Positions 453 to 35,366 of a stretch of DNA of 64,000 bases are shown piece after piece (within the stretch, counting starts at the first letter, position 1; each line of letters starts with the position of its first letter). The position numbers and the translations under genes are program-made. Origin of the DNA: Psychrobacter aquaticus CMS 56 (GTDB lineage Bacteria; Pseudomonadota; Gammaproteobacteria; Pseudomonadales; Moraxellaceae); NCBI RefSeq assembly GCF_000471625.1, contig NZ_AUSW01000035.1:248001-312000 (forward strand). The letters run 5' to 3'. Below the pieces are notes generated by a model, which saw only the letters and a program-made list of their open reading frames with translations, was not told where the DNA came from and did no database searches.

Positions 453-529
453 GTAAGCATCATTTGTAATCTATAAACATTTGCATAAAAAGCACGCGCA
501 ATAAAGACAACTACCAGTAAGGATTTTAT

Positions 530-1309: not shown

Positions 1310-1521
1310 GCGATCAATCATATTTTTCTTTGTCAACTGTCTTTATAGTCGATTCTAAATAAAACAGATATATTATATTTCAAGGCTGAACGGATATAAA
1401 TTTTTCTTGCTTGCTGTGTCTTCGCAGCTCGATGCGGCGAAACTTCTCGTTTAAAGATAAGCATACCAGTTCCGCTGACTCATTTTATACTGAACTTACT
1501 ATATTTTAGGAAACCGCCATT

Positions 1522-2589: not shown

Positions 2590-3662
2590 TGTCAAGTCAT
2601 CCAGTATCCTCAACATCACCTGCTGTCTTTGTACAAAAAAAACGCCGTTTAAACCCTATCTGGCAGGCACGTTTACAGCGTTTTCGCCAAAATCGGCTCG
2701 GGGTGATATCGCTGTTTGTGTTTGTGATGATATTTATCATTTGTATGGCCGCCAATGTGATTGCCAATGACAAACCCCTGTTGGTGCAGTATCAAGATGA
2801 TTATTACTTTCCTATCTTAAAAGCCTATCCTGAAACGACGTTTGGGGGCGTCTTTGAGACTGAAACCAATTACAAAGACCCTGCAGTGCAAGCCTTAATC
2901 AATGATCAGGGTTATTATGTGATGCCGCCCATTCCGTTTGCCGACCAGACACCCAATGTTGAGCTGGGCATGCCATATCCAGCACCGCCTAATAGTCAGA
3001 ATTGGCTGGGTACTGATGATTTGGGTCGCGATGTGCTGGCGCGAATACTTTATGGTATGCGGGTATCATTGTTGTTTGGTCTGGCCTTGACGCTGGCGGG
3101 TGCTTTGATTGGTATTATCATTGGTGCGATGCAAGGGTATTATGGTGGTTGGGTGGATTTAGCTGGACAGCGGTTTATGGAGGTGTGGGGCGGTATGCCG
3201 CAGCTATTTATGATTATTATCCTAGTCAGCTTATTTAGCCCTAGTATCACCATGCTATTTGCCATGATGCTGTTGTTTGGTTGGATGGGATTGGTCGGTT
3301 TGGTGCGGGCAGAGTTTTTGCGTGCCCGTAATTTTGATTATGTGCGCGCTGCCCGTAATCTGGGGGTGTCGGACAGTCAAATCATGCTTAGACATATTTT
3401 ACCCAATGCGCTGGCCTCAAGCCTGTCGCAACTGCCATTTATCCTCACTGCGAATATTATAGCCTTAACGGCGCTAGACTTTTTGGGGTATGGCTTGCCG
3501 CCTGGCTCACCGTCGCTGGGCGAGCTGATGGTACAAGGAAAAAACAACTTGGATGCACCGTGGCTTGCGCTATCAGGATTCTTTAGTTTAACCTTTATTT
3601 TGTCATTGCTTATCTTCGTTGGCGAAGCACTACGTGATGCGTTTGATCCGAGGCGCTCTTAA
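2589..3662 (+). CDS. yejE: ABC transporter permease, YejE type
   Basis: Second inner-membrane permease of the same peptide transporter. The N-terminal region has a short cytoplasmic arm (RLNPIWQARLQRFRQNRLG), a first membrane span, and then a large periplasmic loop of about 100 residues before the GTDDLGRDVLARILYGMR motif, which is characteristic of DppC/YejE permeases. The EAA-like loop appears as AARNLGVSDSQIMLRHILPNA. The start overlaps the stop of the previous gene by one base. The next gene begins two bases after this stop, so the three genes form one translational unit. Confidence 0.87.
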   Translation: MSSHPVSSTSPAVFVQKKRRLNPIWQARLQRFRQNRLGVISLFVFVMIFIICMAANVIANDKPLLVQYQDDYYFPILKAYPETTFGGVFETETNYKDPAVQALINDQGYYVMPPIPFADQTPNVELGMPYPAPPNSQNWLGTDDLGRDVLARILYGMRVSLLFGLALTLAGALIGIIIGAMQGYYGGWVDLAGQRFMEVWGGMPQLFMIIILVSLFSPSITMLFAMMLLFGWMGLVGLVRAEFLRARNFDYVRAARNLGVSDSQIMLRHILPNALASSLSQLPFILTANIIALTALDFLGYGLPPGSPSLGELMVQGKNNLDAPWLALSGFFSLTFILSLLIFVGEALRDAFDPRRS

Positions 3663-3663
3663 T

Positions 3664-5334: not shown

Positions 5335-5401
5335 TTTATTCACCATAAAAAATGTCAAAACATAGCCGTTCATAATAATAGCGACATACTAAAAATGGCA
5401 G

Positions 5402-5410
5402 TGGTACAAT
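5402..5410 (+). promoter_or_regulatory. Possible extended -10 promoter for the iron-dependent alcohol dehydrogenase
   Basis: TGGTACAAT matches the extended -10 pattern TGn-TAnAAT, with one departure from TATAAT. It lies about 70 bases upstream of the ATG at 5484. No convincing -35 box was seen, which extended -10 promoters can do without. Motif reading only. Confidence 0.3.
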
Positions 5411-5483
5411 AAGTTTTGGCAGTCATCATTTGCTCATTAAAATGATCGTCATTGCTATTACTCACATCACTAAAAAGGATTTT

Positions 5484-6800
5484 ATGCCCATGAAAAAACA
5501 AAAAAGCATTGCTAAATTGATGAGTACAGATGGATTACAGCACGCAGGTTATTTGGCCGTTGCCAAAACTCGCGCCAAAGTGCTAAAAGTATTTTCTCAT
5601 GTGATACCTATCAGAAGACCTATGTTATTTGTCGGCGAGACTTCTTGTGAAGCGCTATGCGACATGCTCATTAGCGAAGGCAATACCAATGTTTTTATCG
5701 TCACAGACTCCGTGCTAACTAAGCTGGGTATACCTGCCAAAGTCACTGATTATCTAGACGCAAAAAATATCAGCTATAAACTCTATGATGGTGTGACGCC
5801 AGACCCTACTTTTAAGGTAATCGAAGAAGGACTGCGCCAATCTTTAGAGGCTGAGTGCGATTCGATAATCGCTATTGGCGGCGGCTCAGTGATTGATGCC
5901 GCTAAGATGATTGCTATGTCGCAAGGCAATGACTGTCAACCTAAAAAGCTCATTGGTATTCTTAAAGCAAGAAAGCCTTCAGTACCTTTATATTGTGTTC
6001 CTACCACTGCTGGAACTGGCTCAGAAGCCACGCTTGGCGCGGTCGTATCAGACGATACAACCCATCAAAAATCTCTGTCTATCGACCCACGAATAGTGCC
6101 ATTAGCGGCGGCTATCGACCCTGTTATTATGAAAGGAATGCCGGCGCATATTACGGCAGACACTGGTATTGATGTATTGACGCATGCATTAGAAGCGTGG
6201 ATGAGTGCAAACGCCAGCGTCGAGACTGATTATTATGCGGCCTCTGCGGTCAAATCTGTAATGCACTATTTACCATTGGCTTATAAAGATGGCAGTGATC
6301 TAAAAGCAAGAGAAGAGATGGGTATTGCAGCGCATTATGGTGGTATTGCCTTTAACAAAGCTGGCCTTGGGTATGTACATGCGATTGCTCACCAATTGGG
6401 CGCGTATTATAGTATTCCTCATGGTCGCGCTAACGCTATTGTGTTGCCTTATGTGCTTGATGTAAACCGTGACGCCAGCAAAAAAAGATTGGCGTCCTTG
6501 GCCAAAAAAACTGGCATGATAAAAGAGGGTCAAACTATTGGTAGTGACAGTAACATAACCGATAACTTTATCACTCAAGTACGTGATTTGATTAAAACTC
6601 TAAATATTAATCCGACTGTCAAAGGTATGAAAACTAGTGACTTTGATAGCATTGCCAAAGCCGCTGCCAAAGAAGTCAGTGATACTTATGCGGTGCCAAC
6701 TTATTTATCAGCGTCTGAGATAAAAGAGATTTTAATGAAAATTAAGCAGGTAAGTGACGAGCAGGTAGATCAAGCTAAAAATAGCGATAAGGTCGCATAA
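5484..6800 (+). CDS. Iron-containing alcohol dehydrogenase
   Basis: NAD(P)-dependent alcohol dehydrogenase of the iron-activated (group III) family, 438 residues. Visible hallmarks are the nucleotide-binding GGGSVIDAAK, the TTAGTGSEAT segment, and the metal-binding region with DTGIDVLTHALEAW followed by HAIAHQLGAYYSIPHGRANA, which supplies the Asp and three His ligands. The ATG at 5484 is preceded by AAAAAGGA at good spacing; an in-frame ATG at 5430 lacks one. It stands alone with its own terminator. The family acts on diverse short-chain alcohols or aldehydes, so the substrate cannot be named from sequence. Confidence 0.88.
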   Translation: MPMKKQKSIAKLMSTDGLQHAGYLAVAKTRAKVLKVFSHVIPIRRPMLFVGETSCEALCDMLISEGNTNVFIVTDSVLTKLGIPAKVTDYLDAKNISYKLYDGVTPDPTFKVIEEGLRQSLEAECDSIIAIGGGSVIDAAKMIAMSQGNDCQPKKLIGILKARKPSVPLYCVPTTAGTGSEATLGAVVSDDTTHQKSLSIDPRIVPLAAAIDPVIMKGMPAHITADTGIDVLTHALEAWMSANASVETDYYAASAVKSVMHYLPLAYKDGSDLKAREEMGIAAHYGGIAFNKAGLGYVHAIAHQLGAYYSIPHGRANAIVLPYVLDVNRDASKKRLASLAKKTGMIKEGQTIGSDSNITDNFITQVRDLIKTLNINPTVKGMKTSDFDSIAKAAAKEVSDTYAVPTYLSASEIKEILMKIKQVSDEQVDQAKNSDKVA

Positions 6801-6810
6801 CTGTATACAA

Positions 6811-6851
6811 AATAAAGTCTATTATCCAAAGGATAATTGGCTTTATTTTTT
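6811..6851 (+). terminator. Intrinsic terminator after the alcohol dehydrogenase
   Basis: AATAAAG...ATTATCC pairs with GGATAAT...CTTTATT around an AAA loop, with one internal mismatch, and runs into a T tract ending at 6851. It starts 11 bases after the stop codon. Confidence 0.75.
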
Positions 6852-6939
6852 GAACCGTTCAATATATAACAATTTAGGAATATTTCAGTGATACCTAACG
6901 GTTACGATGGCTACATGACATTACTTTTAGGAGCTTTTT

Positions 6940-8160
6940 ATGACACGCCAATTATCAGTGAGTTATAAGTTACAGGCCAAAGTCGTTGGTATAGTCATCA
7001 TAGCGAGTAGTGTTCTTTATGTTGGTTGTACCGTTCCCGAAAATACTTCTATTGTGAAAAATACGCCCGTCGATAATCCTTATGCGCCTACTGATCCAAA
7101 TTTGGCAGTAGCTACGGTTGCTGGTGGCTGTTTTTGGTGTGTGGAAGCTGGTTATGAAAAAATACCTGGTGTTGTTGAAGTGGTTTCAGGCTATACAGGT
7201 GGTCAGTCCACCAATCCAACTTATAGTACCGTGTCAGCGGGTAGTACGGGTCATACTGAAGCGGCACAAGTATATTATGATCCAACGAAAATTACCTACA
7301 ATGGTATCGTTCAGGCATTGTGGCGAATGGCAGATCCTACCGATGATCAAGGTCAATTTGTAGACCGCGGGACGCAGTATCGTCCTGCAATTTTTTATAA
7401 CAATGCGCAAGAAAAGCAGATAGCGGAAGCTGCTAAGCAATCGTTACAAGACGCTGGTGTCTATGATAAGCCAGTCGTGATTGAGATTGTACCTGCCAGC
7501 ACTTTTTATCCAGCAGAAGAATATCATCAAGATTATTACAAAAAGAACCCACTGCGCTATAAGGCTTATACTTTCAATTCTGGTCGCTATCAGTTTATAG
7601 AAAGTGTCTATGGCAAAAACTACGAGCTGGATTTTAGTCAATTCAAGCCTACTACGGCCACTGGTGAACAAGTAGCATCGAGCAATGCGCCAATCATTAA
7701 TGCTAGCTCAGGATTTAATCCAGATACTTTTGTGAAGCCGACGCAGGATGAGCTAAAGAAATCACTCAGTGACATTCAATACGAGGTCACTCAAAAAGAC
7801 GGTACTGAGCGCGCTTTCGATAATGAATATTGGGATAATAAAGAGCCTGGTTTATATGTTGACGTGATCTCGGGGGAGCCACTATATTCTTCTCGGGATC
7901 AATACAAGTCCGGAACTGGTTGGCCAAGCTTTACTCGTCCATTGAGCGCTGATAGTGTGGTTGAAAAGGAAGATCGGGGAATATTTGGCACTCGTACAGA
8001 AATTCGTAGCCGCTACGCTGATTCACACGTGGGTCATGTGTTTGACGATGGGCCAGCACCGACTGGCAAGCGTTATTGCATGAATTCAGCAGCGATGCGT
8101 TTCATTCCACTGGCGCAAATGGAGGCAGAAGGCTACGGTAATTGGGTTGATGAAGTATAG
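6940..8160 (+). CDS. msrAB: Lipoprotein-type MsrA-MsrB fusion, methionine sulfoxide reductase
   Basis: Repairs oxidised methionine. The MsrA domain (about residues 56-215) reduces the S-epimer and carries GCFWC with catalytic Cys64. The MsrB domain (about 265-400) reduces the R-epimer and ends with RYCMNSAA, catalytic Cys380. The N-terminus has a hydrophobic segment and a plausible lipobox LYVGC at residues 26-30, so the enzyme is probably exported and lipid-anchored, acting on envelope proteins. The structural CxxC zinc pairs found in many MsrB proteins are absent: the segment before SGTGWPSF reads [12 protein letters not shown] with no cysteines. Preceded by TTAGGAGC. Fusion order MsrA then MsrB is common. 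Confidence 0.92.
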
Positions 8161-8313
8161 TCGTCCAATTAAACCTTGTTATATCAAACCAAAAAATACG
8201 ATTAGCCGTGTCAAACTCGTGTAGCTTACCTGCGTAGTACAGGCGCTGGTTTTTCTTGCTACTCTGATTTTTGGGATTGGTATGAATCACGGCTACGTTG
8301 AACGATGCGCATA

Positions 8314-8341
8314 AAAAAAGGATACCTAAGTATCCTTTTTT
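8314..8341. terminator. Two-way intrinsic terminator between msrAB and folE
   Basis: A perfect 12-bp stem, AAAAAAGGATAC with GTATCCTTTTTT, around a CTAA loop. T runs occur in both directions, so it can end transcription of the converging msrAB and folE genes. Confidence 0.85.
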
Positions 8342-8365
8342 CTTTATTTATTGTTTTTTAAAGCG

Positions 8366-8977
8366 TTAAAACGCTGGTTGACGTCTAGGTATCGCGCTCA
8401 AAAACTCAGTGCGCGCCTGATTATCATGGACAAACTCGCCCAGCATTGATGTCGTACGGGTGGTGGAGTGTTGCTTATTCACACCGCGCATCATCATACA
8501 CATATGCGCCGCATCCATCACTATGGCAACACCGCGGCAGCCAGTCACATCCATAATGGTTTGGGCGACTTGATCGCTTAAATTTTCTTGAACTTGTAAA
8601 CGACGGGCGAACATATCGACAATACGGGCAAATTTTGATAACCCCAATACTTGACCGTTGGGCAAATAACCCACGTGCGCGACACCATGAAAAGGCAACA
8701 TATGATGTTCGCACAACGAATAAAATTCAATATTTTGTACCAATACTAGCTCGCGATTGTTCGATGGAAAGAGGGCATCATTGACGACTTCGTCCAAGCT
8801 TTGATGATAGCCTTGGGTCAAATGAGCAAAAGCTTTTGCGGCACGCAGCGGCGTCTCTGCAAGACCAGGACGTTCTAAATCTTCGCCAGTTGAGAGAATC
8901 AATTGACGATATGATTCGACGCTTTCTTGGTAATCTGATGTTATGATTGGGGTGTTACTCATAAGTTTGGCAGCCAT
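8366..8977 (-). CDS. folE: GTP cyclohydrolase I
   Basis: Cytosolic homodecameric enzyme that converts GTP to 7,8-dihydroneopterin triphosphate, the first step of folate synthesis. The zinc-binding region [10 protein letters not shown] and the later [20 protein letters not shown] are both present, as is KQHSTTRTT near the active site. Length 203 residues is in the usual range. A second in-frame ATG exists at codon 6 (8962) and could be the true start. The gene is divergent from fabI, separated by about 310 bases. Confidence 0.94.
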
Positions 8978-9288
8978 CCAAAATGTGGGTGTAGCTTAAC
9001 GCTAAATCCTATTATGTAAGGATTCTTATAAAAATTGTGCAAGCTGGAAGGGCTGTGATTATACTTGAAATCTCCTGAACTTCATACTGCTGTAGCAAGC
9101 AGTTGAGCGTTTAATCGTTATTAAGCGCTACGGTAAGTGAATAGAGTTTACGACTGTTTACTTAAATGAATTCGTGTATAATGTTATTTTTTAATTTGTA
9201 TTTGGTCACTACGTGATATCTATCATATCTGACCACGCTAGATCATTTTATAATTCAAATAATCTTGTTCGATTCAAAAGGAAACACT
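8978..9288. other. Divergent intergenic region between folE and fabI
   Basis: About 310 bases with no convincing gene. It holds a small inverted repeat, ACTGCT (9086-9091) with AGCAGT (9098-9103), and a TATAAT hexamer at 9177-9182, about 107 bases before the fabI ATG, that may be its -10 box. No good -35 box accompanies it. Confidence 0.5.
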
Positions 9289-18100: not shown

Positions 18101-19419
18101 GCGATGACGATGGTGTGACCATTCGTGTGCCACTTGCTGCATTACCGCAGTTAGATGCGATTGAGCTGCTTTGGGGCGTACCCGGTTGGCGCTTTGAGCT
18201 GGTATTGCAATTACTCAAGTCATTACCAAAAGATATTCGCCGTCAGATTGTACCGATTCCTGACACTGCCGATAGCTTGTTTGACGAGTTACAGCCTGCT
18301 GTTGGCCAGGGGTTGCTAAAACAATTGTGCCAAGCGCTAAACCGTCGCGGCATCATATTAGTGACGCCAGAGAATTTTAATCCAGCTACGATTGATCGTT
18401 ATTTGCAGCCTCAAATCTGTGTGGTCGATGATAAAAACCGTATTATCGAAAAAGGCCGTGATTTGCAGACGCTACAGATTCGTCATGCCTCAGAGACCAG
18501 TCAAGCGGTAAATGAGCAGCAAGGGGTACACACAGAATTTCCTGAGCATTTTGCCTTTAGTAAAAACCATCATAGCGCAGGCGTGGTGATGAAGCAGTTT
18601 GCGGCGCTCGTCGCTGATGAGGCAGGCGAAGCGGTATCGATTCATCAATATACGGACGTTAATGCAGCATTACAAGCGCACCGAATCGGTGTCTTAACCT
18701 TAATAAAAAGCAAGCTTGGTGCCAAGAAAAAACAGCTAACCAGTCAAATTGACAATATATTCAAGCTGGCATTTGCGCCACTCGGTGATATGGAAAAGCT
18801 TAAAACCATCGTCATTGATGCGGCATTAGATGCGGCGCTTGAAGAACACTATGTATTGTTTGATCACAGTATGGATTTGCCTGAAAGCGCTGATAGCATT
18901 GCCGTTGGTCTGGCTGAAGAATTGCCTTTTACCCCAGCGGAGTATGAGCAAACTTTGGAAGTAGTGGCTGGCAACTTCTTATTGACGGGACAAAGTGTGA
19001 TAAAAACGCTCAAAAACGTCTATACCCGCTGGCAGCGTATCCGCCAAGGGTTATTGATGCTTGATCGTGAGATATTCGGTGAATCTATCGAAGATATCGA
19101 AGATCAGCTAGAAGATCTGCATTTGGCTGATTTTGTTTATCGGATGGATTATAGCCACTGGCAACAGTATCCGCGTTATCTTGAAGCACTAGAGATACGT
19201 CTTGAGCGCCTCGAGCACAATTTGGATGCTGACCTTGATGGTGTCTATGCGTTGGATTTACATATGGAGCGGCTGGCAGGGCGTGCGGACAAAGAAGCCA
19301 TCAGTGAGTATCGCTGGATGGTGGAGGAGTACCGTATTCAATTATTTGCGCAACCGATGAAAACTCGTATGGCGGTATCGCCGAAACGTCTGAGTAAAGT
19401 GTGGGATAAGGTGGGTTAA
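15112..19419 (+). CDS. hrpA: ATP-dependent RNA helicase HrpA
   Basis: Large DEAH-box helicase of 1435 residues. After a charged, low-complexity N-terminal tail of about 130 residues come Walker A GETGSGKTTQ (about residue 155), the DEAH box (about 252), SATLD, and the second RecA domain with NVAETALTVPGIRYVIDLG and QRKGRCGR (about 475). The HrpA-type C-terminal extension follows (DUF3418-like region ending near the stop). HrpA of Escherichia coli is about 1300 residues; the extra length is in the N-terminal tail and a Lys/Ser-rich insertion near residues 560-580. HrpA proteins have been linked to mRNA processing and rescue of stalled ribosomes. Single gene with a terminator. Confidence 0.93.
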   Translation: MPNTSKNNTLNKSTTADNHDTNKSTLQDYEHSVIEPNNERISSIDDTTDLPVLAKDSYLLSRLERELARAAVSSKKSKDNSDNNVGKSDKADDVLTKKRAQYDKIKTRSQQAVQARMDSIPSDLPAKLNLDLPVSQRAEDLVQAIIDNQVIIVAGETGSGKTTQLPKLAMLAGRGITGQIGHTQPRRLAARSVANRIAEELGEQLGNTVSFKIRFNEQGTAQSVVKLMTDGILLAELGHDRFLSKYDTIIIDEAHERSLNIDFIMGYLKKLLPKRPDLKVIITSATLDTKRFSEYFSRYDTKLKRQVPAPIFNVEGRSFPVEVRYRPLTDEPVTSSDDDSYDDFEENLPRAVVAAVEECFSDAQNKGHADQADILIFAATEAEIRELQEVLERHGPKHTEVLPLFARQTYEEQQRIFQPSGRGRRIVIATNVAETALTVPGIRYVIDLGFARISRYSYRSRVQRLPIEAISQAAANQRKGRCGRVAPGVCIRLYSEEDFSGRPEFTEPEILRTNLASVILQMANLRLGSVDDFEFIEPPDSRLVTDGHKLLDELGAITVKSESAPVNQTSKPKSKKGLDHLSLTATGQKMARMPIDPRLARMLVAGSDFDCIREMLIVVAALAVQDPRERPANKRTQADQKHAIFRQDDSDFLFYLSLWKALFEKDEDGNKLSGNQRKQFAKKNYLSFPRVREWHQTHRQLVQMVTELNLTDVNEVKIADKGTDKSTSIENVTSDPTAIDDEELRAVKYANLHRALLTGLLSIIAHKTENRGEYLAARQQKAKIFPASTVFKQIPPWVMAFEMVETSQVFMRTVAKIEPEWIISAAGNLLKYHYFEPHWSKKTGRVKAYAQISLFGLIIISKQLTNYEQVNLSESREIFIRDGLVTGNLGRQAPFLQHNMDKIADIERIEDKLRRRDLLVDEESLYQFYDKKIPEHIASRKAFEDWRAEVEKTDTKHLFFTDDDVLNSQAPTTGDFPEVWKLGDLKLPLRYVFDPASDDDGVTIRVPLAALPQLDAIELLWGVPGWRFELVLQLLKSLPKDIRRQIVPIPDTADSLFDELQPAVGQGLLKQLCQALNRRGIILVTPENFNPATIDRYLQPQICVVDDKNRIIEKGRDLQTLQIRHASETSQAVNEQQGVHTEFPEHFAFSKNHHSAGVVMKQFAALVADEAGEAVSIHQYTDVNAALQAHRIGVLTLIKSKLGAKKKQLTSQIDNIFKLAFAPLGDMEKLKTIVIDAALDAALEEHYVLFDHSMDLPESADSIAVGLAEELPFTPAEYEQTLEVVAGNFLLTGQSVIKTLKNVYTRWQRIRQGLLMLDREIFGESIEDIEDQLEDLHLADFVYRMDYSHWQQYPRYLEALEIRLERLEHNLDADLDGVYALDLHMERLAGRADKEAISEYRWMVEEYRIQLFAQPMKTRMAVSPKRLSKVWDKVG

Positions 19420-19444
19420 AATCAGAAAGTATTTTTGATTTTTT

Positions 19445-19478
19445 AGGCTGGATTGGTAATTACTAATCCAGCCTTTTT
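19445..19478 (+). terminator. Intrinsic terminator after hrpA
   Basis: A 15-base arm AGGCTGGATTGGTAA pairs with TTACTAATCCAGCCT (one G-T pair) and is followed by five T residues. Confidence 0.85.
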
Positions 19479-19554
19479 ATTTGAAAAAATTAAGGCGGGT
19501 TTGATATTCATAAATAGTCTCTGTCAGTGTCATGTTTGAATGTTCCAACATGCC

Positions 19555-19884
19555 CTAATGACTGATTTTTTCTGTCAGCACACCCACGCTATAGAATATA
19601 AATGCAATCGCGGTGAGCGCCACGATAAATGGCGTAAATATCCAAATGACAATATTAATCAACATCGAAAGTAATAAGCCATTAAATAATACATTTTTTG
19701 ATGTGAAAAAATCTGTCATCGTATCGATGGCACGCTTAGCAATGGGAAATAATAAAGTGCTGAGTGCCAGCATATAAAGATATTTGCTAAAGCTTGGATC
19801 ACTCATAACCACCATAAAATAAAAAACCAAGAAAAAAGTGACACCTAATGCCCAGCATTTGAGAGTGTAGCTTAAATACATCAT
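19555..19884 (-). CDS. Small hypothetical membrane protein
   Basis: A 109-residue protein with three or four hydrophobic segments (about residues 8-28, 37-50, 68-84 and 85-102), so probably an inner-membrane protein. The start ATG follows GGAGG at seven bases, a strong ribosome site. An ATGATG double start exists; the first is better spaced. I do not recognise the family, and there is no clear functional neighbour. It belongs to a patch of accessory-looking genes from 19.5 to 21.9 kb. Confidence 0.65.
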   Translation of the reverse strand: MMYLSYTLKCWALGVTFFLVFYFMVVMSDPSFSKYLYMLALSTLLFPIAKRAIDTMTDFFTSKNVLFNGLLLSMLINIVIWIFTPFIVALTAIAFIFYSVGVLTEKISH

Positions 19885-20211
19885 GTTGGTTCCTCCATAG
19901 TTCTTCTTATGAGCGTGCCTAGAAAAAAGAGTATCTCATTATATTCAAAATAACGAATATTATATATGTTATAATATGAATTTATGCATTAAGTCAACTA
20001 TTTTTTTCTTTTTATCCTTATCATGGCTAACGACAATCAACAGAACGTACCATCGAGACATTAATAGCTATACTATTTATAAAAATGTGACTAGCACTGA
20101 GTTAGGAAAAAAAGACAATAAAAAATCCAGTGTCAGACGTTTTATGCAAACATCTAACACTGGATTTATGGTGCCTTTAGCCTAAAACGAATAGACTGGG
20201 CAAGTGGCTGA
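19885..20211. other. AT-rich intergenic region between the small membrane protein and the repeat protein
   Basis: About 330 bases with no supported gene, apart from the terminator at 20120-20167. An open plus-strand frame at 19976-20185 has no ribosome site and its end reads through that hairpin, so it is not called. Confidence 0.45.
20120..20167 (-). terminator. Terminator of the repeat-protein gene
   Basis: AAATCCAGTGTCAGACGTTT and AAACATCTAACACTGGATTT form a 20-base stem with two G-T type pairs. On the minus strand it is followed by a run of T (plus-strand A tract 20120-20125). It lies about 45 bases beyond the stop of the gene at 20212-21069. Confidence 0.8.
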
Positions 20212-21069
20212 TTAGCTTTCTAATTGATCGATCATACCTTGGTATTTTTCTTTTTTATCGACAAGCTTACTGCGTTCTTCTTTTGCATTAGGTACTGATT
20301 CTTCAGAATCTTCTACCTTTTTATCAAAGGCCTCTAATTCAGCATCTACGCCAACTAAGAGTTTATTTAATAGTAATGCAACTGCTTTTTCAGAAACCCC
20401 ATGAGTCATACCAGAAGCTTCAGACTTAAGATCGTCTTTAAGCTTAGCAGCCCATTGGTAAATATTGGCTACTGTGGCACTGTACTTGTCATCTTTGTCA
20501 GACTTATCGCTGTCTGATCTATCATCATTAGAGTTGTCACTATCGGATGACTTATCAGACTTATTGTCGTCAGACTTATCGCTTTTATCAGACATAAAGT
20601 CATCTTTGAGTTTAGTAGCCCACTGATAGATATTGGCTATCGTCACGCTTTTATCAGACTTGTCATCTTTATCAGACTTGTCATCTTTATCAGACTTGTC
20701 ATCTTTATCAGACTTGTCGTCTTTATCAGACGTGTCGTCTTTATCAGACGTGTCGTCTTTATCAGACTTGTCATCTTTATCAGACTTGTCATCTTTATCA
20801 GACTTGTCATCTTTATCAGACGTGTCGTCTTTATCAGACGTGTCGTCTTTATCAGACGTGTCGTCTTTATCAGACGTGTCATCTTTATCAGACGTGTCGT
20901 CTTTATTAGACTTATCGTCTTTATTAGACTTATCGTCTTGATGATCAGAATGTTCGTCATCAGAAATGACATCATCACCCTTTAAGACTTCTACAGATGT
21001 GACAGGACTGTTTTTACGAGTTTCTGGTGAGTCATTTTCTACGTTATTATTAGGGGAGTTGTTTGACAT
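20212..21069 (-). CDS. Asp/Lys/Ser-rich repeat protein with two copies of an ANIYQWA motif
   Basis: A 285-residue, extremely hydrophilic protein that I cannot assign to a family. Residues 45-140 are sixteen perfect or near-perfect copies of a six-residue unit DD(K/T)S(D/N)K. Two copies of ANIYQWA(T/A)KLKDD lie at about 145-157 and 201-213, on either side of another Asp/Ser-rich linker. The C-terminal 70 residues contain a hydrophobic helix (about 229-241) and a charged coiled-coil-like tail. No signal peptide or membrane segment is seen. The start is preceded by AAAGGG at about ten bases. The repeat could be a flexible spacer or cation-binding tract; that is speculation. Confidence 0.75.
   Translation of the reverse strand: MSNNSPNNNVENDSPETRKNSPVTSVEVLKGDDVISDDEHSDHQDDKSNKDDKSNKDDTSDKDDTSDKDDTSDKDDTSDKDDTSDKDDKSDKDDKSDKDDKSDKDDTSDKDDTSDKDDKSDKDDKSDKDDKSDKDDKSDKSVTIANIYQWATKLKDDFMSDKSDKSDDNKSDKSSDSDNSNDDRSDSDKSDKDDKYSATVANIYQWAAKLKDDLKSEASGMTHGVSEKAVALLLNKLLVGVDAELEAFDKKVEDSEESVPNAKEERSKLVDKKEKYQGMIDQLES
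20650..20937 (-). repeat. Tandem array of sixteen 18-bp units inside the repeat-protein gene
   Basis: The 288 bases encode residues 45-140 of the protein at 20212-21069. Each unit reads close to TCATCTTTATCAGACTTG on the plus strand, with only a few positions varying (A/G, T/G). Because the unit is a multiple of three, copy-number change would keep the frame. Two other frames also stay open over the array for the same reason. Confidence 0.95.
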
Positions 21070-21439
21070 GGTTTATAGCCCTTTTTAAATTATTCATTGA
21101 AAGATATCAATACTCGATATTAAGCTAGTCACTTCTTTTATTCAGTATCTTAATGTAAATAAAGGGCCTGAGATCTTGGGTTTTCAACCGTTATACTCGA
21201 TAAATCAAATTTTATAACGGCTATGACAACCCCTATAAGGTTATATACAGTAGTTATCATTCATCGATAAAGCCTTTATCGTTAAGGGTTGTAGAGAACT
21301 GCTGCTTTACAGTGGTATAAATCGTAATAGTCGTTTTACTCAAAATCGGGCTTGTGACCTTTCTTAACAGGATTGAGATAAAAGTCGAGTAACCCCTATG
21401 CTAAAATTCTTGAATTCCATCATAGCTACGAGGTGTCAT
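21070..21439. other. Divergent intergenic region with a compact palindrome
   Basis: About 370 bases between the repeat-protein start and the LprI-like gene, with no supported gene. At 21265-21281 it has CGATAAAG and CTTTATCG around a single C, a perfect 8-bp dyad that could be an operator or a small stem. It could serve either gene. Confidence 0.4.
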
Positions 21440-21838
21440 ATGCAATTGATTAAAAATAATTTGAAAAAAATGTCTGGTATTGCACTGTTTTCAGTTGGAC
21501 TATTCGCTACTGCGCAAGCATCAGCAGCCAATGCCTGCGACAATGCTTATACGCAGGCAGATATGAATAAATGCACAGCAACTGAATTGTCAGCTGAAGA
21601 CAAGAAACTGAATCGTTCATACAGTGATCTACAGCGTCTATTAAATAGCAGTGAGAAAAAGCAGTTAAAGACAGTGCAACTAGCATGGATTGACTTTAGA
21701 GACAAAGCCTGTAAATTTTCTGCTCGCAATTTTACTGGTGGCAGTGCCTACTCAATGGCGCTCAATGGCTGTTTAACAACGTATACACATCAACGACGCG
21801 TGCAGCTTGATGAAGAAATTCAGAATCTTAAAAAGTAG
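21440..21838 (+). CDS. LprI-like (DUF1311) secreted protein
   Basis: A 132-residue protein with a clear signal peptide: a lysine-rich start, a hydrophobic core ending ATAQASA, and mature sequence from about residue 26. The mature part has ACDNAYTQADMNKC, the KLNRSYSDLQRLL helix and WIDFRDKACKF, in the order typical of DUF1311 domains, some of which (LprI) inhibit lysozyme. Four cysteines are placed as in the family, so disulfides in the periplasm are likely. I prefer the ATG at 21440, which follows GAGG, over the one at 21398, because it gives a normal signal peptide. Confidence 0.8.
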   Translation: MQLIKNNLKKMSGIALFSVGLFATAQASAANACDNAYTQADMNKCTATELSAEDKKLNRSYSDLQRLLNSSEKKQLKTVQLAWIDFRDKACKFSARNFTGGSAYSMALNGCLTTYTHQRRVQLDEEIQNLKK

Positions 21839-21908
21839 AGACATAGAACATAGCTAATAAAAAGGTTCAGTATAAACACAGGTCAGTCAGCAAGAGTACA
21901 CCATGTTA

Positions 21909-22370
21909 TTAAGCGATTTTGGGTTCTGATTTGCTACTAGAATGAATAAAATAAAGGGCAATAGCGAGACAGATTAAAGCACTGATACGACTACCAGATA
22001 AGCTGATTGCTTCATTGCCCAACCAACCAAAGTTATCGATTAACACGCTCATACTCAGTTGCCCAAAAATAACGGCTACAGTTGCTACTGCCGTACCAAT
22101 ACGTTGTACTGCAACCACCATAATGACAATATAAGGAACGCCGCACAATGCGCCCAAAAGCTGCCACTTGGGCACATCCATCAAGGTAACAGGATGATTT
22201 GGTTCAAAGAAGAAGATAAGTAAGGCTGTCACGACAGCGCCCACAGAAAAGGTTAAAAAAGCACTTTTGAACACGCCCACGTTGCCGCCAAGGCGACCAT
22301 TTAATGCTGCTTGAACGCTCAAAGTAGCGCCGCCAATTATTGCTAATATAATCATCAAAAAAAGCGTCAT
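21909..22370 (-). CDS. DUF606 (YdcZ-type) small DMT-superfamily transporter, second of a pair
   Basis: A 153-residue inner-membrane protein with five hydrophobic segments, of the DUF606/YdcZ branch of the drug/metabolite transporter superfamily. GGATLSVQAALNGRLG and the GALCGVPYIVIMV segment are typical. It is the second gene of a pair; the first ends six bases upstream. DUF606 proteins often occur as two adjacent five-span copies or as a fusion, and the pair probably assembles together. The substrate is unknown. Confidence 0.8.
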   Translation of the reverse strand: MTLFLMIILAIIGGATLSVQAALNGRLGGNVGVFKSAFLTFSVGAVVTALLIFFFEPNHPVTLMDVPKWQLLGALCGVPYIVIMVVAVQRIGTAVATVAVIFGQLSMSVLIDNFGWLGNEAISLSGSRISALICLAIALYFIHSSSKSEPKIA

Positions 22371-22375
22371 TTATT

Positions 22376-22810
22376 TTACCCCTTTGCCATGAAAAACAGT
22401 GCTGCAATAATAAACAACAAAGCAATAATTCTTCTCTTGTCTATTTTTCTTTCCGTAGTACCAAATAGCCCGTAGTGATCTATTATCAAACTCTTAGATA
22501 CCTGCCCAGCAAGTATGCCAATCATGGTCATCGCCACCCCAATGACAGGAGTCACCACCGTCAATATCACAACGTAAATAGGGCCTAAAACACCACCCAC
22601 GAGCAATAAAGGCGGCTGTGAGAAGAACGAAGGGCTGTCTCGTGGACTAAAAAACAACATTAAAAAGAATGTCAGTGCTGCACCTACACCAAAAATACTC
22701 AGTGTCGCCCACAGCTCACCAACCTGACTCCCTAAGGGTCCAAGTAGTCCCGCTTCTACAGATAAACCCATGCCGCCTAAAACGACAATAAGCACTAATA
22801 ATATTTGCAT
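22376..22810 (-). CDS. DUF606 (YdcZ-type) small DMT-superfamily transporter, first of a pair
   Basis: A 144-residue inner-membrane protein with five hydrophobic segments and the DUF606 landmarks GGMGLSVEAGLLGPLG and GGVLGPIYVVIL. The ATG at 22810 follows AAGGA at good spacing; an in-frame ATG at 22831 lacks one. It is paralogous to the gene just downstream on the same strand, and the two are likely cotranscribed. They face a LysR regulator divergently, across about 100 bases. Confidence 0.78.
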   Translation of the reverse strand: MQILLVLIVVLGGMGLSVEAGLLGPLGSQVGELWATLSIFGVGAALTFFLMLFFSPRDSPSFFSQPPLLLVGGVLGPIYVVILTVVTPVIGVAMTMIGILAGQVSKSLIIDHYGLFGTTERKIDKRRIIALLFIIAALFFMAKG

Positions 22811-22871
22811 GAAAAAATCCTTAATGAGCAATAGCGTGTAGTCTACAGCAGCTTATCCCCACAAAAAACGC

Positions 22872-22877
22872 TATAAT
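22872..22877 (+). promoter_or_regulatory. Possible -10 box of the LysR gene
   Basis: TATAAT, about 30 bases upstream of the LysR start at 22908. No good -35 box was seen. Confidence 0.35.
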
Positions 22878-22891
22878 ATGGAAATGACCTT

Positions 22892-22904
22892 TGCATAAGT
22901 TGCA
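22892..22904. promoter_or_regulatory. Possible LysR-type binding site (T-N11-A)
   Basis: TGCATAAGTTGCA is a T-N11-A dyad, the core shape of LysR-family sites. It lies between the divergent LysR gene and the DUF606 pair, just before the LysR start codon. This fits autoregulation but is a motif match only. Confidence 0.35.
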
Positions 22905-22907
22905 CAA

Positions 22908-23843
22908 ATGAATACGGTAGATAGCATCAGCATAAAAACCTTACTTTTTTATATCAATGTTTTTAATGCTCAGAGTTTTTCGGTGGTGGCTCGAAAAGAA
23001 GGCGTGTCGGCCTCTAAAGTGTCCCGTATTATCAAGCAATTAGAAGACTCGTTGGGGCAACAGCTTTTTTATCGTAATACCCGTGCCGTTATCCCAACTG
23101 AAGCGGGTCGCGTATTTATGATCTATGCACAGTCCATTACCGAAAGCATGGACGCGGCAAAAAAGGAGTTGCAAGATAGGACATTAGAGCCGGGTGGGTT
23201 ACTAAGAATCAATGCTCCCGTATTTTTTGGACAACGACATATCGCGCCTTGGTTGCCAGAGCTTAGTGCGCAGTATCCCAAATTACAGCTAGACTTGACG
23301 TTGACTGATGACTTTATTGACCCTCATCATGATGCGACAGACGTTATTTTTAGAATTGGAACTTTGAATGACTCGGCCTTTCATGCACGTATTTTTGGTG
23401 AGCAAACTTATCATCTTGCCGCCGCTCCAGAGTACATAAACAAACACGGTAAACCGCAAACGCCCGCAGATTTGATCCATCATAAAGGGTTGGTATATAA
23501 AGGTTCGTCGGGCCCAAATCGTTGGCTGTTTAAGACAAAAAACGAAGACTGGATTTCTTGCTTGGCGCCTGCCTTACTTATGTCCAATAATGCAGAATCC
23601 TTATTGGTATCCGCCCTAAAAGGCATGGGTATTGTCCTATTCCCTGATTGGCTAATTGGCGATCACTTAAAAGACGGTACATTAGTGAAATTACTGCCCA
23701 ACTATAATACCGCCGTGAAAACAACGCCCCAACATATAGCTGCTATCTATCCCAACACTCGTCATGTTTCACTAAATGTTAGAACGTTGATTGATTACTT
23801 TGCCAAAGTGTATGGAAATCCGCTTTATTGGCAGCTGCATTGA
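22908..23843 (+). CDS. LysR-family transcription regulator
   Basis: A 311-residue regulator with an N-terminal winged helix-turn-helix (about residues 10-68: FSVVARKEGVSASKVSRIIKQLED) and a C-terminal substrate-binding domain. The HTH and the RNTRAVIPTEAGRVF segment place it in the CrgA-like LysR branch. It is divergent from the DUF606 transporter pair, so it is likely to control that pair and itself. The effector is unknown. Confidence 0.88.
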   Translation: MNTVDSISIKTLLFYINVFNAQSFSVVARKEGVSASKVSRIIKQLEDSLGQQLFYRNTRAVIPTEAGRVFMIYAQSITESMDAAKKELQDRTLEPGGLLRINAPVFFGQRHIAPWLPELSAQYPKLQLDLTLTDDFIDPHHDATDVIFRIGTLNDSAFHARIFGEQTYHLAAAPEYINKHGKPQTPADLIHHKGLVYKGSSGPNRWLFKTKNEDWISCLAPALLMSNNAESLLVSALKGMGIVLFPDWLIGDHLKDGTLVKLLPNYNTAVKTTPQHIAAIYPNTRHVSLNVRTLIDYFAKVYGNPLYWQLH

Positions 23844-24172
23844 GGACTCGTCGTTTAAATACAATAAACAGTCATACGCTACTTGCAGAGCCTAATATAA
23901 AAACAAGTCACTTGTTTAGTAGGGCGATTAGCATTAGCAATACCTATTAGTGTTACTTCAATATGCTTGATAAAGAATAAAAATTCGTTAAGACTGTTTG
24001 AATCGGTTTTTTAGGTTATAGCTAGTAGAGAGTGGTCACTATTGATCATAAACAACTAAATAATGTAAATAGGTTTTATAAAATGCTTAAATGCAGAATG
24101 AGTTAGCCTTGTCTTGATCAATTATTTGATACGTTATTTAATTAAATTTTAGCCAAGCCACGGGGGAGTTTT
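23844..24172. other. Intergenic region upstream of the BLUF gene
   Basis: About 330 AT-rich bases without a gene. At 23901-23917 there is a perfect 8-bp dyad, AAACAAGT and ACTTGTTT, around a single C. It is followed by no T run, so it looks more like an operator than a terminator. Confidence 0.4.
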
Positions 24173-24682
24173 ATGGAGCAGTCTGAGCTTTTCGCAAAAG
24201 GAGACTCAAATATGCCTCAAGGCGAGCATATTATTTTACGTTTGACTTATGTTAGCCGTCATAACGCAAGTAACAAAAATGTGGAAGTGACTCGTATCCT
24301 TGCACAAGCACATAGAAATAATCAGAGCAATGGTGTTACTGGTGCTTTAGTAATCAGTGAAGACTATTTTCTCCAAAGTATTGAAGGTCCAAGACCTGTT
24401 ATTAATGAGTTGTTGAGAAAGTTGTTTAAAGATGAAAGGCATTTTTCGTTACAAGTTATAGAATGCACTGAAGTTAAACAGCGACGCTGGGGTAAATGGT
24501 CAATGAAGCATCTAAGTCTTAGCGATCAGGATAGAGAATACGTGCGTAAGTTTTCGGTAGGCACTAACTTTGATCCTTATCTAATAAATAGCGCACAAAT
24601 CATAGAGTTTATTGAGATATTATCAAGAATTGAAGAGGAAAGAGAAAAGCATAAGTCTGCAACAAAACATCGTAGTTTTTGA
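24173..24682 (+). CDS. Short BLUF-domain blue-light photoreceptor, BlsA-like
   Basis: A 169-residue protein made of a BLUF domain (FAD-binding, blue-light sensing) and a short C-terminal tail, with no output domain. Using 1 as the first Met, the key residues fall at Tyr26, Asn50, Gln68, Trp109 and Met111. Those spacings are the same as Tyr21, Asn45, Gln63, Trp104 and Met106 of AppA, so a light-active flavin site is expected. Family members of this size, such as BlsA of Acinetobacter, act by binding other proteins. Two starts are possible: ATG at 24173 after GGGGGAG, and ATG at 24212 (codon 14) after AAGGAG. Confidence 0.9.
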   Translation: MEQSELFAKGDSNMPQGEHIILRLTYVSRHNASNKNVEVTRILAQAHRNNQSNGVTGALVISEDYFLQSIEGPRPVINELLRKLFKDERHFSLQVIECTEVKQRRWGKWSMKHLSLSDQDREYVRKFSVGTNFDPYLINSAQIIEFIEILSRIEEEREKHKSATKHRSF

Positions 24683-24775
24683 TAAGGCAGTTTGACTGAA
24701 TGTTGTTGATAAGGGTGAATTGTCGTTTATTGCAAGGGCAATAGACAAAACTGTTGTTGTCGAGTATTAGTCGGT

Positions 24776-25714
24776 CTACATTATTTTTTTAGTTGCTGCT
24801 ATCGGTACTTTTTTATTTAAAATAAACACCAAAACAGCGCCTAAGATGACTGCGCTTGCTACAACGAACCGCATCGTTAATGGCTCAGATAAAAATACCA
24901 CGCCGAGTGTCGCTGCAAGCACGGGCACACACAGTTGTACAACGGCAGCTTGTGTGGTTTTTAATAAAGGCATTGCGGTATACCAAATACTGTAGCCCAT
25001 GCCAGAGGCGATCGCCCCTGACACAGATGCTAGTACTATTCCCTTGGTTGTTATATGGTCTAAACTGAAATTATTGATGGCTACATCACCCAGATAAATT
25101 CCTACAAATGCCAGTATCGGAATCGCTGTTAGACTTCTAATAAAATTAAAACCTGTGGCTCGTAGCGGTGACACGCACGATTTACCGCGTATACTGTACA
25201 CGCCCCAAGCCACACCACTCATGGCCATGAGTGTCGCAGCCATCAGTGAAGGGACAGCGGCTGAAGGTAGCATTAGATAAATAAATCCTATTACTGCTAC
25301 GATAAATGCCATCCATTGTAAGGCGCTTAATTGCTCTTTTTTGTAAATACCCCAACCAATCATAGTGAGCTGAACAGCTGAAAATAGAATCAACGCGCCT
25401 GTGCCAGTGTCAAGTGCCACATAAGCAATCGAAAAGCACAATGCATAAACTACCAAGCTGCTGCTGCTCAACCAGCTGCCTTTATCGTTTAAAATGGCCT
25501 CCGTCGAGATGATACTACCAAGCTCTGCTGCTTGACGCCGTAAGTGGTAAGTATGGATTGTCATGATAATACCCAGACAGGCGGCAGCACTTAAGAGCCG
25601 AATGATGGTAAAGCTCCATGCATCTATATACCCCTCTGCCAATGCCATTCTACAAAACAAAGAGTTCGCGGCAAATGCAACCAATGCAATGACGGTATAA
25701 AGCGTGGCTTTCAA
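24776..25714 (-). CDS. EamA-family transporter (DMT superfamily)
   Basis: A 312-residue inner-membrane protein with about ten hydrophobic segments arranged as two EamA repeats (about residues 1-150 and 160-305). Family-like stretches include SLFCRMALAEGYIDAWSFT and the second-repeat end SEPLTMRFVVASAVILGAVL. EamA proteins export amino acids or other metabolites; the substrate cannot be read here. It is a single gene, divergent from the DUF421 gene. Confidence 0.82.
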   Translation of the reverse strand: MKATLYTVIALVAFAANSLFCRMALAEGYIDAWSFTIIRLLSAAACLGIIMTIHTYHLRRQAAELGSIISTEAILNDKGSWLSSSSLVVYALCFSIAYVALDTGTGALILFSAVQLTMIGWGIYKKEQLSALQWMAFIVAVIGFIYLMLPSAAVPSLMAATLMAMSGVAWGVYSIRGKSCVSPLRATGFNFIRSLTAIPILAFVGIYLGDVAINNFSLDHITTKGIVLASVSGAIASGMGYSIWYTAMPLLKTTQAAVVQLCVPVLAATLGVVFLSEPLTMRFVVASAVILGAVLVFILNKKVPIAATKKIM

Positions 25715-33379: not shown

Positions 33380-33437
33380 AGGCATTCAAAAATACACTTA
33401 AAATAAGCACTTTAACTACTTGGCACAATGGATAGCT

Positions 33438-35366
33438 ATGTCGCAGCAATATCAAGTTTTGGCTCGCAAGTACCGTCCCAAAAACTTTCATGAGTTGATT
33501 GGACAAACGCACGTCTCGCAAGCGCTGATCAATGCGATTGATTATAATCGTCTGCATCATGCCTACCTTTTTACTGGTACGCGCGGTGTGGGTAAAACGA
33601 CGATTGCGCGTATTTTATCTAAATGTTTGAACTGCGATACGGGTATTACCAGCACGCCTTGCGGTGTGTGTGATAACTGTGTGGCTATCGATCAAGGGCG
33701 TTTTATTGATCTTATTGAAATTGATGCCGCCTCTCGTACTAAGGTTGAAGACACGCGTGAGCTGCTAGACAACGTTCCTTATGCGCCAAGCCAAGGGCGT
33801 TATAAGGTATATCTCATTGATGAAGTGCATATGCTGTCGACGCATAGTTTTAACGCGCTACTTAAAACGCTAGAAGAGCCGCCGGAGCATGTGAAGTTTC
33901 TGCTCGCGACGACTGACCCACAGAAATTACCGATTACCATTATATCTCGCTGTTTGCAATTTGTGCTGCGCCCGCTGCCGCAAACGCTACTCAGCGAGCA
34001 TTTAGCAAACATCCTTACCCAAGAGCACGTCGCGTACACACAGCCCGCGCTTTGGCAGTTAGCGAGTGCGGCAAAAGGCTCGGTACGTGATGCCTTGTCA
34101 TTGACCGATCAAGCCATCGCTTTTGGTCAAGGGGCGCTAGATGATGCCACTGTTAATGCGATGCTTGGACTGATTGATGCCGCGGATTTGGTGCGTTTAA
34201 TTACAGATATTTATAACCATGACAAATCTGCCGTCGCCGCTCATATTGAGCAAATGCGTGCGCAGATGGTCGATGCCACCAGTATGTTTGATGGACTCGC
34301 TGAGCTATTACATCAATTGGCTTTGACTCAATTATTACCTGACGTTGCCCTTAATGTGAATGAGGCACAGGCACAAGATATCAATGCGCTTGCACAGCAT
34401 ATCAGCCCTGATGTATTACAGCTCTATTATGAGATTGTTGTGCAAGCCCGAGAGGGCGTTAAGCTGGCCAGTACGCCAATGCAAGCGCTCGAAATGTGTA
34501 TTTTGCGCTTATTGGCCTTTCGTCCACTACCTGTAGACGAAGTGCTCAGCCCTACTTATGAGCATTCTGGTTCATCTGAAAAAACACCAGCGATAGAACA
34601 TACGCCTTCTGCGCCGCAGCCTGCAAACGTTCAGGCACATCTGGCTTCAGTGCCACCATTACAGCCTTATGATGTCGATTATCAAGTACAAAGCAGTGAA
34701 GTGTTGAAAAACACCAACTATGATGATAATGAGTCAAGCATAGATGAGATTTATGGCCAAGAGCCTGAACCGATTGTTGAGCCTGAACCGATTGTTGAGC
34801 CTGAACCGATTGTTGAGCCTGAACCGATTGTTGAGCCTGAACCGATTGTTGAGCCTGAACCGATTGTTGAGCCTGAACCGATTGTTGAGCCTGATGTAAA
34901 TGATTCTCAATTATTATCAGAATCTGATGATCCCCGTACTTTACTGCGTTGTCCTCCTCAAGAGTTGATAGGTGAGTGGACACCAGAGAAATGGGATTAT
35001 TGGCTACAAACGGCGCGTGAAGCCGATGTGCTTGCTCAAGATGAATTGGCGCTGGCGCGTCAAGGTATGATGACAGGCCTGTGTAATGGTAAAGCCACTT
35101 TTATTACAAGTGTGGACAGTCGGCATCTGCAAGTTACTTTTCAACAATTAGCAGCAAAGTTACAACAGCAATTTATGCAAGCAGAAATTGACCTAAAAAT
35201 TGATGGTAGTGTTATGCAAGCTGATGATAAAACACCTGAACGCCGCCAACAAAAACGTTTGGTACAGGCCAAAACTGTGGCAGAATCCAAGCTGCTTAAT
35301 ACGCCAGTGATGCAATATCTGACTGAGCGCGGCGAAGGGAAAATGGGTAAGATTCAGTTGTATTAA
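33438..35366 (+). CDS. dnaX: DNA polymerase III subunit gamma/tau
   Basis: Clamp-loader ATPase of the replisome, 642 residues. Walker A is GTRGVGKTT (about residue 47), four clamp-loader zinc cysteines follow (CLNCD...CGVCDNC), then DEVHML and the SRC box. After the conserved domains, about residue 370, the protein has a low-complexity linker with seven EPEPIV repeats (442-483) before the tau-type C-terminal region. I chose the ATG at 33438; a TTG in frame at 33420 is less likely. No slippery A6-type frameshift signal sits in the right frame near the gamma/tau junction. Confidence 0.92.
   Translation: MSQQYQVLARKYRPKNFHELIGQTHVSQALINAIDYNRLHHAYLFTGTRGVGKTTIARILSKCLNCDTGITSTPCGVCDNCVAIDQGRFIDLIEIDAASRTKVEDTRELLDNVPYAPSQGRYKVYLIDEVHMLSTHSFNALLKTLEEPPEHVKFLLATTDPQKLPITIISRCLQFVLRPLPQTLLSEHLANILTQEHVAYTQPALWQLASAAKGSVRDALSLTDQAIAFGQGALDDATVNAMLGLIDAADLVRLITDIYNHDKSAVAAHIEQMRAQMVDATSMFDGLAELLHQLALTQLLPDVALNVNEAQAQDINALAQHISPDVLQLYYEIVVQAREGVKLASTPMQALEMCILRLLAFRPLPVDEVLSPTYEHSGSSEKTPAIEHTPSAPQPANVQAHLASVPPLQPYDVDYQVQSSEVLKNTNYDDNESSIDEIYGQEPEPIVEPEPIVEPEPIVEPEPIVEPEPIVEPEPIVEPEPIVEPDVNDSQLLSESDDPRTLLRCPPQELIGEWTPEKWDYWLQTAREADVLAQDELALARQGMMTGLCNGKATFITSVDSRHLQVTFQQLAAKLQQQFMQAEIDLKIDGSVMQADDKTPERRQQKRLVQAKTVAESKLLNTPVMQYLTERGEGKMGKIQLY
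34761..34886 (+). repeat. Seven tandem 18-bp units in dnaX
   Basis: GAGCCTGAACCGATTGTT is repeated seven times without a mismatch and encodes EPEPIV each time. The 126 bases lie in the linker between the ATPase/collar part and the C-terminal part of tau. Confidence 0.97.

Follow-up and report, generated by a model that had tools for sequence, protein, structure and literature searches.

Which part of a strongly acidic, repeat-rich bacterial protein is kept constant, and what might such a protein do? The question is raised by a gene in a 64,000-nucleotide stretch of the genome of Psychrobacter aquaticus CMS 56, which we call the window. The gene is alone on the reverse strand at this place and encodes a 285-residue protein that consists of 26% Asp, 17% Lys, and 15% Ser, with only 1.8% Gly and a GRAVY of −1.74. 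The parts of the gene are as follows.

20212–21069, reverse strand: gene of the 285-residue acidic protein (net charge −39, pI about 4.3).
20965–21012, reverse strand: N-terminal conserved motif NSPVTSVEVLKGDDVI, residues 20–35.
20650–20937, reverse strand: array of 16 × 18 bp encoding DD(K/T)S(D/N)K, a predicted unstructured polyampholyte spacer.
20566–20649, reverse strand: first YQWA helix segment, residues 141–168.
20485–20565, reverse strand: second linker, irregular, acidic, and made of Ser/Asp/Lys, between the YQWA copies, residues 169–195.
20215–20484, reverse strand: C-terminal 90-residue module with the second YQWA helix and a helical hairpin, the region that defines the family.
20218–20391, reverse strand: the helical hairpin, with predicted helices at 227–254 and 262–284.

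A sequence-only reading of this DNA had described a 288-bp array of sixteen 18-bp units, two YQWA copies, a coiled-coil-like end, and no signal peptide. All four were confirmed, the third in that the C-terminus is predicted to be helical. By hydropathy, the protein has neither a hydrophobic N-terminus nor a transmembrane-like stretch (the best 10-residue Kyte–Doolittle mean in the first 40 residues is 0.61, and the best 19-residue mean over the whole protein is 1.33). The lack of a signal peptide had been called odd. It is not once the family described below is considered, for none of its 56 distinct members has a 19-residue mean above 1.33.

Tandem Repeats Finder reports the array at 20650–20939 with a period of 18, 16.1 copies, 95% matches, and a score of 454. 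The uninterrupted hexapeptides (residues 45–140) comprise two DDKSNK, seven DDTSDK, and seven DDKSDK units. The array lies in the middle of a contig in a draft genome of 38 contigs, and the count of 16 is that of the assembly. Two further open reading frames span the array, at 20633–20941 (forward strand, 102 residues) and 20643–20978 (reverse strand, other frame, 111 residues); they are by-products of the 18-bp unit. A second 18-bp array is present elsewhere in the window, at 34761–34894 (7.4 copies, 100% matches). It encodes EPEPIV and lies within the open reading frame 33420–35366, which looks like DNA polymerase III tau/gamma (dnaX).

The possibility that the repeats are an assembly artefact was not borne out. 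The unit number varies widely among many independently sequenced genomes, one of which (G089) is a single contig and carries 21.7 units; the repeats as such are therefore not a product of assembly. A six-residue array of at least four units is found in 19 of the 56 members, with a maximum of about 22 units. Both the sequence and the length of the unit vary: KSEKDD, DDKSSK, and DTEDKS occur, and L025 has an array of a 5-residue unit that the six-residue test missed. Linker length ranges from 10 to 195 residues in the 51 of 56 members that have the start pattern used for measurement (L012, L019, L028, L050, and L072 do not). Linker composition is steady in the same 51 members, with a charged fraction of 0.61 ± 0.09, a net charge per residue of −0.17 ± 0.08, and a hydrophobic fraction of 0.04.

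Plasmid 1 of P. urativorans R310.10B (L077, NZ_CP012707.1) provides a pair of closely related copies. This circular record of 24,169 bp is largely a tandem dimer of 11.7 kb with 99.35% identity. Over first-half positions 74–9266 (9.2 kb), the halves are identical except for one 18-bp unit and a single substitution, both of which fall in the family gene. Apart from one base at position 73, the remaining differences cluster past 9266, in and after the mobilisation gene, where one half shows scattered single-base gaps and substitutions. As the two copies differ by one unit, it appears that units are gained or lost over short times and without a frameshift, although the difference was read from an assembled record and may be explained by a repeat-length error in it. 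The wide variation in unit number among genomes stands independently of this record. By these comparisons of sequence, the array is the least conserved part of the family. It is a dispensable spacer, and the conserved helix and hairpin are the core of the protein.

The family is confined to one genus in our searches. When the C-terminal 81 residues served as the query, 50 of 105 whole Psychrobacter genomes had a match. A profile built from 54 modules hit 50 genomes out of 299 from the Moraxellaceae, and all of these belong to one of the 16 genera. (The profile holds 54 of the 56 distinct members; the C-termini of the other two repeat those already included.) All 15 named relatives are Psychrobacter, and the carriers include the species glacincola and glaciei and an Antarctic isolate. 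The 61 stretches fetched gave 58 family genes (56 distinct after two identical copies were dropped), three genes for proteins of a helix-turn-helix (HTH) type (L073–L075), and one stretch without a match (L076). Decayed fragments of the family with stop codons are seen at G103:C36 and in the second match of G015. The median net charge of the family is −22.5, and mean Gly is 2.8%, with 6.1% in the highest member.

The full-length protein matches no Pfam family at E ≤ 1, no NCBIfam model at E ≤ 0.1, and no PADLOC model at E ≤ 0.01. With the 54 C-terminal modules, the best Pfam matches among 25 of the 44 families obtained at E ≤ 0.1 were Phage_Mu_Gp48 (2.4 × 10−4, 8 of 54 members) and SPAM (0.0017, 15 of 54). 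NCBIfam gave Rad50 (0.003, 1 of 54), PHROGs gave family 2658 (1.6 × 10−4, 15 of 54), and the PDB searched by sequence gave 0.016 at best. These matches are weak and scattered, with different members hitting different coiled-coil-like families, and were judged to be coil resemblance and not a known domain. A fold search of the PDB with the C-terminal module gave a best value of 0.48 and nothing at E ≤ 0.001. In the literature searched, the listed titles and opening parts of abstracts contained no description of the family, and the string IYQWA occurs in none of the papers covered. We also considered whether the gene is phage cargo. Phage records contained no match to the family, and of 120 viral-contig stretches picked out by a pattern-based scan none was confirmed as a relative; the idea was rejected. 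The C-terminus, searched on its own, turned out to be no known domain, and in the libraries searched the earlier statement stands: no described family is laid out in this way. Judged by these searches, the family is real and found here only in Psychrobacter, and nothing in Pfam, NCBIfam, PHROGs, PADLOC, or the PDB matches it convincingly.

The earlier interpretation is supported in part. What stays constant in the family is the N-terminal motif, together with the YQWA helix and the C-terminal hairpin. The N-terminal motif has the consensus VxxVEVxKxDxV. E27, V28, and D32 are invariant in the 44 aligned members, and N20, V26, K30, and V34 are conserved in at least 90% of them. A GDFEDYNAE-like half of the motif is present in many members and absent from the subgroup to which the protein in the window belongs.

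The two YQWA segments of the protein are ANIYQWATKLKDD and ANIYQWAAKLKDD. The first is a separate match to the family profile (profile positions 2–29, E 3 × 10−8). Two YQWA segments are present in 32 of the 56 members and only one in the other 24. Two of the 24 are special cases: L028 begins close to the end of a contig, and the 5′ end of L019 is rearranged. When the first copies of the 32 two-copy members are located by the profile, I, Y, Q, W, K, L, and K (columns 5, 9, 10, 11, 14, 15, and 16) are identical in all 32. First copies located by a pattern show the same identity, where the pattern itself fixes K and L and limits Y, Q, W, and A. In the second YQWA helix, W206, K209, and L210 are invariant in the 44 of 56 members aligned over their full length. 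Within the 32 two-copy members, conservation is no weaker in the tethered first copy than in the second. The dN/dS (ratio of sums, 18 codons) is 0.11 over 276 pairs of copy 1 and 0.16 over 416 pairs of copy 2, with pairs chosen by divergence and conditioned on the search pattern. Copy 1 is therefore constrained like copy 2, although it is flanked by disordered linkers.

The hydrophobic positions of the YQWA consensus are −4, −1, 3, 6, and 10, which we read as the 3–4 spacing of a coiled coil. The amphipathicity of the segments is barely above that of shuffled sequences (p = 0.025 and 0.057 in one test, 0.081 and 0.038 in another). Over 88 YQWA segments, the mean lipid-binding score is 0.52 and the net charge is near 0. 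The usual threshold for lipid binding is 0.68. A helix that binds membranes was rejected on account of this low score, which favors packing against protein.

Structure prediction for the C-terminal module gave three helices (2–25, 32–59, and 67–89) with a mean pLDDT of 77.8. Block means are 80–93 for residues 31–90 and only 54–65 for residues 1–30, which include the YQWA helix. The full-length prediction is of low confidence (53.2) and shows helix both at the two YQWA segments and at the hairpin, with coil elsewhere. Across 54 members, twelve columns of the module never vary, and the same holds for several hairpin positions in the 44 aligned. The 210 pairs that fall in the chosen range of divergence have a median dN/dS of 0.14 over the C-terminal 81 codons, with no value exceeding 1, and comparison with the P. 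vallis copy gives 0.036. The C-terminal hairpin is, to judge from these ratios, under purifying selection.

The same hairpin is seen at the C-terminus of HTH-like Psychrobacter proteins (hhalign probability 96.6, E 6 × 10−10, 53 columns), in a comparison of shallow alignments of coil-like sequence with Neff of about 2 and 1.8. Such sharing is expected of an oligomerisation module. Full-length proteins of this type (L073, L074, L075, and L129) occur in 4 of 249 genomes, with a shorter HTH-like relative in G031. The best hint for their N-terminal part is a sub-threshold match to IS66 TnpA. G037, G038, G039, and G046 carry both the acidic family and HTH-type proteins, and the genome of the window has no match to the HTH type. 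The HTH-like protein at L129 3962–4681 adjoins genes that presumably belong to a urease operon, and genes of the same clusters as these neighbours flank the HTH-like protein in L073 and L074. A shorter protein with an HTH-like part and a coil lies at L166 1489–1926, next to what we take to be ExbB/ExbD-like genes, in a genome where the acidic family finds no match.

A tree of the C-terminal end (93 columns, many forks unresolved) separates a clade of 18 rows (support 100/99) from one of 38 (100/99). Every member of the smaller clade has a single YQWA segment and, by the test used, no six-residue array. All 32 two-YQWA members fall within the larger clade, whose outermost rows (L015, L048, L012, and L052) have a single segment. 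This suggests that the second YQWA was gained once; the relevant fork is weak (82/73).

The surroundings of the gene contribute two further features.

21117–21159, reverse strand: conserved upstream element TTTACATTAAGATA followed by CTGAAT-N17-TAATAT, promoter-like, recurring before family genes at unrelated loci.
20123–20167, reverse strand: intrinsic-terminator-like stem (20 pairs) and T-run, 44 bp past the stop codon.

The consensus of the upstream element is TTTACATTAA-NN-TACTGAATAAAA, then CTGGCTTA(A/G)TAT, from an alignment of 53 of the 56 regions (without L019, L028, and L072). The element has diverged in many members, chiefly in the single-YQWA clade, and the L048 gene has no match within 4 mismatches. 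Matches with 0 or 1 mismatch occur only before family genes (15 loci). By our count, the two hexamers agree with the promoter consensus at 3 of 6 and 4 of 6 bases, and a simple promoter scan did not list the element; it is termed promoter-like for its conservation. At up to 3 mismatches, the P. aquaticus genome has 21 sites against 10 for the reversed control. One is perfect and lies before this gene, two have 2 mismatches, and 18 have 3. A brief look at 300 bases around the two sites with 2 mismatches revealed nothing recognisable, and a convincing second gene with the element was not found in this genome. The window itself holds three sites against 0.59 expected, the other two with 3 mismatches. 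No Rfam match was obtained at 19000–22500 of the window.

Family genes lie in an hrpA/DMT-type interval (the window and seven others, with G025 seen from one side), on plasmids, and at other sites, one of which adjoins genes that we take to be glutaminase and pnp. A single chromosomal site accounts for most of one clade. The family also occurs in four plasmid records, one of which has a cytosine methyltransferase gene. No partner gene recurs at all family sites. In the window, the hrpA–DMT interval (20015–24800) contains this gene, LprI, and two YdcZ genes, along with genes that presumably are LysR-like and BLUF-like. Of the 55 Psychrobacter genomes without a family match, eight were examined. 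In all eight, both flanks, that of hrpA and that of the DMT-type gene, align, and between them lie AraC-type and OsmC-type genes (assigned by Pfam for L152 only), joined in six by a small lipoprotein-like open reading frame. G042 and G069 have the family gene together with AraC and OsmC in this interval. The gene is distributed patchily: it is missing from some genomes whose HrpA fragment is 95% identical and present in G037, G038, G039, G044, and G046, at 83–84%. A small acidic Ser/Thr-rich lipoprotein-like gene adjoins the family gene in L046 (3879–4202), L108, L113, L115, L118, L119, and L121, on plasmids and chromosomes.

Two gene partnerships were considered and rejected. Downstream of the gene, a 109-residue membrane protein (19555–19884) has a sub-threshold match to Pfam Microcin (colicin E1 immunity; 17.7 bits against a cut-off of 25). 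A pair of bacteriocin and immunity gene is contradicted by the DNA of the 109-residue gene, which persists in all eight examined genomes without the acidic protein and is near a family gene at the hrpA interval only (7 loci). AraC-type genes are near family genes on plasmids and at one chromosomal site, and the two tested differ (Cupin_6 and AraC_N).

We tentatively propose that the protein is a cytosolic, self-associating scaffold of stickers and spacers, an account that we favor over its rivals but consider less likely than not. The YQWA segment would form an amphipathic helix of coiled-coil type and pack against the C-terminal hairpin. Where a member has a single YQWA segment, helix and hairpin would close into a three-helix module. 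In members with two, the extra tethered helix could reach the hairpin of another molecule and build larger assemblies. Reach and solubility would be set by hydrated, disordered spacers, namely the DD(K/T)SDK array and the other acidic linkers, and gain or loss of 18-bp units would alter spacer length without a frameshift. A partner probably docks on the short N-terminal VxxVEVxKxDxV motif. The likely role would be that of a soluble stress- or crowding-related scaffold that cells gain or lose. Counted against this scaffold are the low model confidence of the YQWA helix, the shallow profile alignments, and an amphipathicity near that of shuffles. Further points against it are that no partner gene is shared by all sites and that the search for a second gene with the upstream element yielded nothing convincing. 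As 24 of the 56 members have a single YQWA segment, the family as a whole cannot have cross-linking by an extra copy as its function.

The main rival, possible but clearly less probable than the scaffold, is a dehydrin- or LEA-like protectant whose repeated amphipathic helices coat membranes or proteins during freezing, salt stress, or drying. Dehydrins have a similar layout, in which helix segments recur between disordered hydrophilic linkers; the strongly negative family charge (median −22.5) and carriers such as glacincola, glaciei, and the Antarctic isolate fit as well. However, the full protein has no Pfam match even at E 1, the YQWA segments score low for lipid binding and carry no net positive charge, and Gly (1.8% here, family mean 2.8%) is far from the more than 6% of the hydrophilin rule. 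A conserved hairpin is unexpected for a pure protectant, and 55 of 105 genomes, some with 95% HrpA-fragment identity, have no match. An adapter is slightly less probable still: a client on the N-terminal motif would be brought to a protein or surface bound by YQWA, with the array as a mere tether. Conservation of the N-terminal motif across a disordered region of variable length and the invariance of YQWA in the first copy are what one would expect of it, whereas the subgroup of the window lacks the GDFEDYNAE-like half of the motif and no partner gene is found at all sites.

An acidic protein of mobile elements (a DNA mimic, an anti-restriction factor, or a plasmid-upkeep factor) seems improbable to us. 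The strong acidity, the four plasmid records, including the one with a cytosine methyltransferase gene, and the patchy chromosomal presence at a swapped interval agree with it, but 17% lysine and polyampholyte linkers do not make a dense negative surface. Nor did PADLOC, the phage records, or the viral-contig scan yield a match or confirmed relative, and one clade is mostly at a single chromosomal site. We give very little credence to a partner or dominant-negative inhibitor of HTH-hairpin proteins acting through the shared hairpin. The hairpin similarity and the four genomes with both proteins (G037, G038, G039, and G046) would suit it; the genome of the window has no HTH-type match, and the full-length type is present in only 4 of 249 genomes, besides the shorter G031 relative.

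Returning to the self-associating scaffold, its interest lies in a family outside the standard libraries searched, in which spacer length and unit sequence vary freely and the binding helices are fixed. If the helices drive self-association, the members form a natural series for the effects of linker length and charge pattern on the assembly of disordered proteins. Two natural copies only one repeat unit apart are part of this series, and many species of the genus are cold-adapted. A wider claim, which we consider unlikely as it stands, is that this is a genus-specific, plasmid-spread protein with a conserved, tethered pair of helix and hairpin, that its cross-linking reach is tuned as 18-bp units are gained and lost in frame, and that it is an evolvable intracellular scaffold or condensate for cold-adapted bacteria.

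Among the closest known systems are the HTH-hairpin proteins, with which the C-terminal hairpin is shared over 53 columns (probability 96.6 from shallow alignments). They have an HTH-like N-terminus, whereas the N-terminal two thirds of the 285-residue protein hold an acidic linker and YQWA and match no domain. Plant dehydrins (group 2 LEA proteins) are likewise disordered and hydrophilic, with short repeated helices and variable linkers. The dehydrin family model was not matched (no Pfam family at E ≤ 1 with the full protein), and the near-neutral YQWA helix, the conserved hairpin, and the very acidic linkers are unlike dehydrins. Hydrophilins are defined by more than 6% glycine and high hydrophilicity; the GRAVY of −1.74 fits this definition, but the 1.8% Gly does not. 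Phasins and coat proteins of granules or lipid droplets are also soluble, helical, and in principle self-associating. They differ from the family in its long acidic disordered linkers and low lipid-binding score, and no phasin model was matched by the full protein at E ≤ 1 or was among the 25 of 44 families seen with the 54 modules at E ≤ 0.1. Sdr-type SD-repeat surface proteins carry a Ser-Asp-rich tandem array of variable length as a spacer, and in this the array is alike. In contrast to them, the 285-residue protein shows no signal peptide or surface anchoring by hydropathy. The family has no hydrophobic N-terminus and no surface domains that we found, has Lys in every unit, and is presumably cytosolic.
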